This document shows, piece by piece, positions 3,305 to 6,991 of a stretch of DNA of 6,991 nucleotides. The DNA comes from Candidatus Aerophobota bacterium (GTDB lineage: Bacteria; Aerophobota; Aerophobia; Aerophobales; B3-G15), in the NCBI GenBank assembly GCA_014859225.1, contig JACUUP010000079.1, positions 1 through 6,991 of the forward strand, in the 5' to 3' direction. The notes below the pieces were generated by a model. The model did not search any database and had not been told where the DNA came from. It was given only the letters and a program-made list of their open reading frames with translations. Position 1 is the stretch's first letter, and the number at the start of each line of letters is the position of its first letter. The position numbers and the translations under genes are program-made.

Positions 3305-3520
3305 ATGAAAGAAGTTCATTCAACCTCATCCTTAAGCGAGGCTGATATAGTAAAGTCTTTTCTTGAGGCAAATGGAATAAAGTGCTTCCTGCAGGATGAA
3401 AATATAGCATCCTCTTATCCTGCGGTAACATTTTATACAGGGGTGAAAGTTTTAGTTAATGATGAGGACTATGAGCTGGCAAAAGAAATAATTGAGGATT
3501 ATATGGAAAATGAAGATTAA
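3305..3520 (+). CDS. DUF2007 family protein (putative signal-transducing protein domain)
   Basis: This 71-aa soluble protein has the DUF2007 pattern: an N-terminal strand (KEVHSTSS), a helix that begins EADIVKSFLEANGI, a strand CFLQDE, then VKVLVNDEDYELAKEIIEDYME. The fold is ferredoxin-like, and the domain is often annotated as a putative prokaryotic signal-transducing module, but no biochemical role is established that I know of. The length is normal for a single-domain member. GAGGA at 3293-3297 lies seven bases before the ATG and overlaps the stop codon of the upstream 34-codon ORF. The gene faces the MFS gene tail to tail across a 44-bp gap, so those two are not in one operon. Family assignment is by remembered pattern; function is unknown. 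Confidence 0.75.
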   Translation: MKEVHSTSSLSEADIVKSFLEANGIKCFLQDENIASSYPAVTFYTGVKVLVNDEDYELAKEIIEDYMENED

Positions 3521-4846: not shown

Positions 4847-4874
4847 TTGACTATTTATAATTTAAATATATAAT
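4847..4874 (+). promoter_or_regulatory. Sigma70-type promoter for the feoA-feoB operon
   Basis: TTGACT at 4847-4852 and a consensus TATAAT at 4869-4874 are 16 bp apart in a very AT-rich stretch. The predicted start near 4881 falls in the centre of the palindrome at 4871-4890, so a bound repressor would block RNA polymerase directly. Confidence 0.75.
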
Positions 4875-4890
4875 TAGGTTAACCTAATTA
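4871..4890. promoter_or_regulatory. Primary operator, DtxR/IdeR-type palindrome at the feo promoter
   Basis: TAATTAGGTTAACCTAATTA is a perfect 20-bp palindrome. Its core TTAGG-TTAA-CCTAA matches 13 of the first 14 bases of the DtxR/IdeR box as I recall it (TTAGGTTAGCCTAACCTAA). It shares four bases with the -10 box. Iron-dependent repressors of this family commonly control feo genes, so iron-responsive repression of feoA-feoB is inferred. A MntR-like relative reading Mn(II) is an alternative; no regulator gene is in the window. Confidence 0.72.
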
Positions 4891-4892
4891 AA

Positions 4893-4906
4893 ATAGGTAA
4901 TCCTAA
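4893..4906. promoter_or_regulatory. Secondary, imperfect copy of the feo operator
   Basis: ATAGG-TAAT-CCTAA repeats the TTAGG-N4-CCTAA layout of the primary palindrome with one changed base in the left arm. The two centres are 19 bp apart, close to two helical turns, so two repressor dimers could lie on the same face. It sits in the transcribed leader upstream of the feoA ribosome site. Confidence 0.55.
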
Positions 4907-4924: not shown

Positions 4925-5179
4925 ATGTTTACTCTTTTAGAGTTGCCCGTGGGGCAGGTGGCTAAGATAGTTACTATAAGAGGCGGCTGGGGAGTGCAAC
5001 GCAATCTTGCCAGTCTGGGTTTTATACCAGGCAAAAAGGTGCGCAAGATAGCTGTTCAGCCCATAGGTGGACCGGTAATGGTGGAAATAGCAGGATGCGG
5101 CCGCGTGGCTATAGGAAGAGGTATGGCAGGTAAAGTTTTAGTTGAAAGGGAAACTTATGAGAGCAGTCTTAATGGGTAA
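4925..5179 (+). CDS. feoA: FeoA, ferrous iron transport accessory protein
   Basis: This 84-aa cytoplasmic protein has the SH3-like FeoA fold signature. LLELPVGQVAKIVTI leads into a short loop with the LASLGFIPGKKVR stretch (28-40; family consensus LxxLGfxpGxxv), followed by GPVMVEIAGCGRVAIGRGMAGKVLV (49-73), close to the usual family ending in which the strand is regulated by binding the transporter. FeoA is needed for Fe(II) uptake by FeoB and is thought to contact it at the inner membrane. GAGGG at 4916-4920 is a good ribosome site just ahead of the ATG. It is first in the operon and overlaps the FeoB GTPase frame by 23 nt, which implies translational coupling. The length is normal, and the short tail after residue 75 is encoded by the overlap. 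Confidence 0.93.
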   Translation: MFTLLELPVGQVAKIVTIRGGWGVQRNLASLGFIPGKKVRKIAVQPIGGPVMVEIAGCGRVAIGRGMAGKVLVERETYESSLNG

Positions 5180-5663
5180 CCCTAATGTGGGGAAAAGTGT
5201 CATTTTTAACCGTCTTACCGGGGTAAAAGTGGTGGTCTCTAACTATCCTGGAACCACTATAGAATACACAGAAGGGATAATGAGGGTAGGGGAGGTTAAA
5301 TTAAAGATAGTTGATGCACCGGGAACTTATTCCCTCATTCCTTCTAACAGGGCTGAGGAGGTAGCGCTACATTTGCTTTTAAAAAAAGAAACCCACCTTA
5401 TAATCAACGTTGTAGATGTAACCAATCTGGAGCGAAATTTATACCTGACTTTACAGATGAGAGAGATTAACATTCCTATGATTTTAAATCTTAATATGAT
5501 TGATGTGGCAAGACGCCAGGGGATAGAGATAGATTTTAATCTTCTCAGGATGTTACTTGAAGTACCCATAGTTCCCACGGTTGCTGTGTCAGGGGAAGGA
5601 ATCAAGGAACTTCATCAGGTAATAAAGCAGATTGTTGAAAATACAGAGAAAAAATGCAGATAG
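5157..5663 (+). CDS. feoB: FeoB N-terminal GTPase domain, separately encoded
   Basis: This 168-aa frame holds the complete FeoB G domain: G1 GNPNVGKS (7-14), switch I PGTTIEYTEG (31-40), G3 DAPGTYSL (53-60), G4 NMID (113-116) and G5 SGEG (145-148). In FeoB this domain binds and hydrolyses GTP to control the Fe(II) pore. The ATG at 5157 is preferred over a TTG at 5142 because AAAGGG at 5145-5150 is well spaced and FeoB proteins start right before this strand. The frame ends at TAG just two residues (Cys-Arg) past an A6 tract. There the membrane domain begins in the -1 frame, overlapping by 10 nt. Nothing seems missing between the parts, so this is either a genuinely split FeoB or one gene broken by a one-base indel. 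Confidence 0.88.
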   Translation: MRAVLMGNPNVGKSVIFNRLTGVKVVVSNYPGTTIEYTEGIMRVGEVKLKIVDAPGTYSLIPSNRAEEVALHLLLKKETHLIINVVDVTNLERNLYLTLQMREINIPMILNLNMIDVARRQGIEIDFNLLRMLLEVPIVPTVAVSGEGIKELHQVIKQIVENTEKKCR

Positions 5664-6991
5664 AATTTGAACCAAGAATAGAAAAGGCTATACAAAGTAT
5701 AATTCAAAAGACAAATCTTCCCAGATGGCAGGTAATTTTAGCTCTGGAAGGCTCAGAGGAGTTCAGGAAAAAAATACCTGAAGCTATTTTTACCGAATCC
5801 ATTAAAGATATAGAACGCGACCATCAGGAGTCAATAGAGACTATTATACTAAAAGCAAGATTTGGGCAGGCAGGCTCCATTGTTAGTAAGGTTCAAAAAG
5901 TTCATCACCGTCATCCTACCTGGCTGGAAAAATTAGGGGATATTACAGTTAAGCCGGGAGTGGGACTGCCGCTTGCGGCAGCTATTCTTTATGGTATATT
6001 TCATCTTTTCATAACTATCGCCGGATGGATAACCGATGCTGTTATGACCCCCTTTTTTGAAGGCCCGTATGATAGGTTTGTGCGCTCACTGGTAGAAAAA
6101 TTTTTCCCTACCGGATTCATACATGATATGCTGCTTGGGGCTCCAGGGGCAGGATACCTGGAATCTTTAGGACTTTTGACTACGGGAATTTTTGTTCCTG
6201 TAGGGATAGTTCTTCCGGCAGTTTTAGTTTTTTACGTTATTCTTACTCTCTTAGAGGATGTAGGTTATCTTCCCAGGTTAGCAGTTCTGGTAGATAGTGT
6301 GTTTCATAAGATAGGACTGCACGGCTACTCCATTGTTCCGGTAATTTTAGCTTTTGGCTGCGCTGTTCCTGGTGCTATGGCTTCACGCATACTGGAAACT
6401 AAAAGGCAGAGGTTTATGGTGCTCACTCTTTTAGGTATATCAATTCCCTGTATGGCACAAACCGCAGTGATTTTAAGTATAATTGGGCCTTTTGGTGTTC
6501 GCTGGGTAATTCTTGTGTATGGCATTTTATTTTGTATATTTGTGGGAGCGGGTAGTTTGCTTAATCAGATTTTACCGGGAGAGGTTCCAGAGATAGCTAT
6601 TGAAATTCCACCTTATAGATTGCCCCGTTTTTCCAATCTTCTTATGAAGACGGGAATCAGATTAGAGCGTTTCCTTTTAGATGCTGTGCCCTGGGTATTT
6701 GTGGGTATAACCATTGTCAATGTTCTTTACATTTTACGCATTACCCATATTTTTTCAGAAGCTTTATCCCCTCTATTGGGTGTTTGGTTAGGCCTCCCGG
6801 GGGAGGCAATTTACCCTCTGGTAATAGGTTTTTTGCGTAAAGATGTGGCTACGGGAATTATTGCTCCTCTTTTAAATCGTGGTTTGATAGACCTTTATCA
6901 GGCTGTAGTTGTAGTGGTCATTCTGGCGGTATATTTTCCCTGTGCCGCTACTTTTGCTGTTTTTTTAAAAGAGTTGGGGATAAAAGATACG
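5654..6991 (+). CDS. feoB: FeoB membrane domain, Fe(II) transporter (3' end outside window)
   Basis: An uninterrupted frame of 446 codons runs off the right edge. Residues 1-60 form the helical linker that normally joins the G domain to the membrane part (KAIQSIIQKTNLPRWQVILALEGSEEF). Membrane segments follow, with the gate signature VLPAVLVFYVILTLLEDVGYLPRLAVLVD (two Gate motifs, first near 187-215), IGLHGYSIVPVILAFGCAVP (220-239; usual GCNVP, Cys236 kept), IPCMAQTAV (264-272), GFLRKDVATG (392-401) and FPCAATFAVFLKELG (428-442). It forms the ferrous iron channel in the inner membrane. The ATG at 5654 has only a weak purine-rich site, so translation probably depends on the upstream frame, whose stop is seven bases further on. 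In-frame TGA at 5636-5638 closes the frame upstream. The closing residues after 442 are near the expected C-terminus, so little is likely missing. Confidence 0.9.
   Translation, partial: MQIEFEPRIEKAIQSIIQKTNLPRWQVILALEGSEEFRKKIPEAIFTESIKDIERDHQESIETIILKARFGQAGSIVSKVQKVHHRHPTWLEKLGDITVKPGVGLPLAAAILYGIFHLFITIAGWITDAVMTPFFEGPYDRFVRSLVEKFFPTGFIHDMLLGAPGAGYLESLGLLTTGIFVPVGIVLPAVLVFYVILTLLEDVGYLPRLAVLVDSVFHKIGLHGYSIVPVILAFGCAVPGAMASRILETKRQRFMVLTLLGISIPCMAQTAVILSIIGPFGVRWVILVYGILFCIFVGAGSLLNQILPGEVPEIAIEIPPYRLPRFSNLLMKTGIRLERFLLDAVPWVFVGITIVNVLYILRITHIFSEALSPLLGVWLGLPGEAIYPLVIGFLRKDVATGIIAPLLNRGLIDLYQAVVVVVILAVYFPCAATFAVFLKELGIKDT

Follow-up and report, generated by a model that had tools for sequence, protein, structure and literature searches.

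FeoB is usually a single polypeptide, and the locus described here raises the question of what it means when the FeoB reading frame breaks at a run of adenines: a damaged gene, a site of slippage, or two genes. The locus lies in what we call the window, the whole stretch of DNA that was analysed, which is the entire 6991-base contig C194 of a draft genome (1.8 Mb in 273 contigs, 91% complete) whose closest named relatives are Candidatus Aerophobetes metagenome-assembled genomes. At 5636-5663 the sequence is TGAAAATACAGAGAAAAAATGCAGATAG. The GTPase frame ends GAG AAA AAA TGC AGA TAG, with its stop at 5661-5663; the membrane frame, shifted one base back (-1), is open from 5639 after a TGA at 5636-5638, and has its first start codon, ATG, at 5654. 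The two genes, feoB(N) and feoB(M), share 10 nt, which they read in different frames. With A7 in place of A6, E-K-K-M-Q-I-E would be read without a stop and the frames would be fused. The bases, the stops and ATG 5654 thus confirm the first-pass annotation, in which the FeoB frames were described as broken at an A6 that one extra A would repair. Nonetheless, a frame break that falls on an A-run in a single metagenome-assembled genome says little for slippage until relatives have been compared, and an A6 is unremarkable in this DNA, since runs of at least six A or T are common (22 in the 7-kb window) and each of the two feoB genes contains an A7 (5381-5387 and 5768-5774); an A6 is present in about 3% of 30-nt sense-strand stretches.

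Table. Features of the feo locus, with positions in the window and the evidence for each.
Feature	Position	Strand	Evidence or remark
Sigma-70-like promoter of the feo operon, TTGACT-16-TATAAT	4847..4874	+	11/12 consensus matches; predicted from consensus only
Candidate DtxR-type box TTAGGTTAACCTAA, perfect palindrome	4874..4887	+	Touches the -10 hexamer
Candidate second DtxR-type box, imperfect copy	4893-4906	+	Sequence likeness
feoA	4925..5179	+	Pfam FeoA PF04023, E 3.6e-18; 23-nt overlap with feoB(N)
feoB(N), separate FeoB GTPase, 168 aa	5157..5663	+	FeoB_N, E 6.8e-56; NFeoB structures; start most likely ATG 5157
A6 run at junction	5649..5654	+	Absent from every split relative
feoB(M), helical and membrane domains	5654..6991, cut by contig end	+	FeoB_Cyto, Gate, FeoB_C; alignment A1

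The break falls between the GTPase and helical domains, and no FeoB domain is lost across it, in line with what had been claimed from the sequence. FeoB_N spans residues 3-155 of the first protein, which carries the G1 motif GxPNxGKS as GNPNVGKS and matches NFeoB domains among solved structures (best 2wjg, E 2.2e-39). FeoB_Cyto, Gate and FeoB_C are on the second, with Gate (PF07670) in two stretches and FeoB_C at E 9.2e-11, consistent with a polytopic membrane domain. Single-sequence and profile searches with the membrane part gave no relevant match to solved structures; FtsY, the sole profile match (E 0.004), looks spurious. Complete relatives run about 26-27 residues past the point at which the contig end cuts feoB(M); the frame is as first described, but the 49 kDa estimated for its product is the mass of a truncated protein. 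On the FeoB equivalog model TIGR00437 (cut-off 315.65 bits), the two halves score 196.9 and 173.8 bits against complementary parts of the model, each below the cut-off as expected for halves, and a fused ortholog, L048, scores 390.8 bits, above it. The 91% complete genome gave only one FeoB_C match, and so shows no further, undivided FeoB of that type.

Between the window and its closest relative (L039, 80% identity), dN is 0.136 and dS 1.99 for the GTPase, and dN is 0.142 and dS 1.17 for the membrane part; the corresponding dN/dS values, about 0.07 and about 0.12, are rough, since dS is near saturation. Judging from these substitution rates, both feoB halves are under purifying selection, and we reject a pseudogene on the low ratios and the intact domains.

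Our search of the phylum covered 17 genomes and found 11 orthologous loci, the window among them, at 70-100% identity. Ten consist of two overlapping or adjacent frames rather than the usual, though not strictly defining, single-polypeptide arrangement; the remaining locus, L048 in genome G006, is a single frame of 639 aa. The start of feoB(M) falls on the same column of alignment A1 in all ten split loci, as ATG in five (the window, L039, L040, L045 and L046), GTG in three (L043, L044 and L047) and TTG in two (L041 and L042). Because interchange of ATG, GTG and TTG fits an initiator and not an internal codon, we take this column to be the initiator. The GTPase stop drifts, with stop-to-start distances of -17 (six loci), -10 (the window), -4 (L046), +1 (L044) and +2 (L039), and the second gene is offset by -1 in three loci and by +1 in seven. 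An A6 close to the junction is absent from all nine other split loci, five of which carry an A5 between 30 nt upstream and 20 nt downstream of the start. On this comparison, the A6 is peculiar to the window genome and incidental, and the divided FeoB is widespread and conserved in the uncultured phylum Aerophobota; it is not obligatory, since one relative is fused. Alignment with relatives had been suggested as a check on the first-pass annotation, and its outcome, with the split and the start column kept and the A6 not, upholds the reading of a real split in which the second start overlaps the first stop.

At the junction of L039 the offset is again -1, the TGA comes earlier, the Shine-Dalgarno match is strong and there is no A-run; this junction differs from that of the window by a 9-nt in-frame gap beside the A-run that leaves the frame relation unchanged. 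Since the offset is shared across an in-frame indel, it most likely predates the A6, which looks secondary, a by-product of a 9-nt gain or loss in one of the two lineages. This bears on the possibility that the true gene is fused, and that the split in the window genome comes from faulty assembly or sequencing, or from the recent loss of one base in a homopolymer. Homopolymers are error-prone, the assembly is a draft in many contigs, and L048 shows that a fused form exists. However, nine other genomes are split, at different junction sequences; the offset shared with L039, whose GTPase gene ends at a different stop, is most likely older than the A6; and ATG 5654 sits on the conserved start column. 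We therefore regard an error or recent deletion, as had been entertained for this locus, as largely refuted and extremely improbable.

Slippage, the other mechanism entertained at first, could occur on the ribosome, as a programmed or incidental -1 shift at AAA AAA, or during transcription of the A6, and would add a small share of fused FeoB to the separate GTPase. After a step back by one base the Lys codon at 5652-5654 is again perfectly paired, and the frames join. Moreover, the A-rich consensus heptamers of predicted frameshift sites include G_AAA_AAA, and frameshifting reached 10% at an A7 site in an E. coli reporter (PMC3711429), such that some slippage at the A6 is possible. On the other hand, G_AAA_AAA leaves a P-site mismatch, and an in-frame A_AAA_AAA heptamer at 5381, within the GTPase gene, suggests that such sites are tolerated as background. 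Some programmed frameshift sites work without a stimulatory structure; here, predicted folding downstream is weaker than the shuffle mean (z +1.2), giving no sign of one, and there is no conserved slippery site at the frame change. Relatives are split without an A6, the outcome that the first-pass annotation itself had named as one to argue against slippage, and with offsets of both signs, seven of them opposite to that of the window; slippage at the A6 would be peculiar to the window genome. The slippage products of dnaX and magnesium chelatase likewise involve two frames one base apart at an A-run (PMC3711429, PMC1088944), but the run here is only an A6, it is not conserved, and most relatives have the opposite offset. 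Slippage that yields a fused minority product is thus very unlikely; we reject slippage as the main explanation of the split, and it is unnecessary for making both FeoB proteins.

We propose that the locus is very probably a feoA-feoB(N)-feoB(M) operon in which the two parts of FeoB are real genes with coupled translation, and in which the halves join non-covalently as a FeoB-like Fe(II) transporter. Direct support comes from the two intact frames, from purifying selection, and from the fact that the split and the start column are conserved and the A6 is not. From this we infer translational coupling, assembly of the halves and iron transport by the split FeoB: feoB(M) would have its own initiation codon at 5654, used mainly by ribosomes that end feoB(N) a few bases downstream, and the GTPase and membrane proteins would then assemble. 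In coupled pairs the second gene typically starts a few bases from the stop of the first, and the two products are often subunits of the same complex (PMC10666635, PMC12548453); the nearness of the feoB(M) start to the upstream stop is conserved in all ten split loci, at distances of -17 to +2 that lie within or near those reported for coupling in the same studies. The start of the second gene at or near the stop of the first is likewise a feature of the coupling clusters of GeneTack, in which partners are again often subunits of one complex (PMC3711429). Against our preferred reading, the overlap of 10 nt in the window, and of up to 17 nt in relatives, exceeds the 4 or 1 nt favoured in coupled pairs. 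Among the nine other split loci, eight have a Shine-Dalgarno match ahead of the start that beats at least 83% of internal NTG codons. Also against this reading, the match at the window start (-2.9 kcal/mol) is no better than that of internal NTG codons taken at random (control median -2.8), such that initiation at 5654 would depend on coupling; the window start may rely on coupling more than do the starts of its relatives.

The palindromes upstream of feoA are presumably boxes for a DtxR-family regulator, and like boxes lie 5' of feoA in five other orthologous loci (L040, L041, L045, L046 and the fused L048). By analogy with known DtxR-type boxes, the promoter and palindromes would look like those of an iron-controlled operon, and a DtxR-type box and an adjoining feoA are consistent with the predicted role in Fe(II) transport. 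Further upstream, the window encodes an extracellular solute-binding protein and then an FGGY kinase above the xylulokinase cut-off (34-2971), by annotation a sugar-use cluster adjoining the feo operon; a small DUF2007 protein, putatively signal-transducing, is encoded at 3305-3520, between the xylulokinase-like gene and an MFS transporter.

The window group has the domains of known FeoB (TIGR00437; FeoB_N, FeoB_Cyto, Gate, FeoB_C) in unchanged order, and feoA directly before them, and differs in having the GTPase and membrane parts on separate polypeptides. It also differs in its second Gate region, PC[MT]AQTAV; at this second conserved cysteine region all 11 orthologs have S-[IV]-PC-[MT]-AQTAV (A1 columns 263-272; window 6440-6469). 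E. coli FeoB has an ARLPV-type motif there. We note that the metal specificity of the window-type FeoB may differ, to judge by this motif. Feo parts have likewise been re-partitioned among polypeptides in the FeoAB fusions of Bacteroides and Porphyromonas (PMC8980893), but there FeoA is fused onto FeoB, whereas in the window group FeoB itself is divided.

The split may be ancestral in the window clade, with L048 re-fused, or L048 may keep the ancestral fused gene, and we consider the chances evenly balanced. In a careful tree L048 lies inside the split rows, which would mean re-fusion, with weak support (81/65, 82/75); however, constraining the ten split rows to one clade is not rejected (p-AU 0.215). 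Among distant relatives (about 40-48% identity, from many phyla), most of those found are fused. A second split group, without most of the cytosolic helical domain, is found in G003, G010, G015 and G016, which belong to the same taxonomic order, and includes a contig labelled Methanosarcinaceae (L099), on a long branch; its loci are L024, L025, L026, L117/L126 and L099, the bacterial ones with two tandem FeoA-like genes upstream. A third split affects a different FeoB type (L123, 1335-1470 of contig C87 in G006), in which the GTPase frame ends with TAA at 1427-1429 and the membrane frame has an ATG at 1432, 2 nt after the stop; G006 thus has a fused ortholog of the window type and a split FeoB of another. 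A single clade of all 15 split rows is rejected (p-AU 0.0004). From these trees and junctions, FeoB appears to have been split at the GTPase/helical boundary more than once, although the tree leaves the number of events unsettled. Split FeoB genes are mentioned for some prokaryotes. Our literature search, which covered few subscription papers, found no split FeoB or separate GTPase and membrane polypeptides, and prior reports are possible.

How the FeoB GTPase drives iron movement is an unsettled question, and a naturally divided FeoB supplies its GTPase and its channel as separate parts that can be co-expressed, and so allows the need for a tether between them to be examined. On balance, we lean towards the view that a stable two-protein FeoB, GTPase plus channel, exists in this phylum, in which NFeoB would not need to be joined covalently to the membrane domain and the GTPase would be made, and perhaps regulated, separately, and that such a split arose more than once: in the window clade, in the second group with its archaeal contig, and in the separate FeoB of G006.
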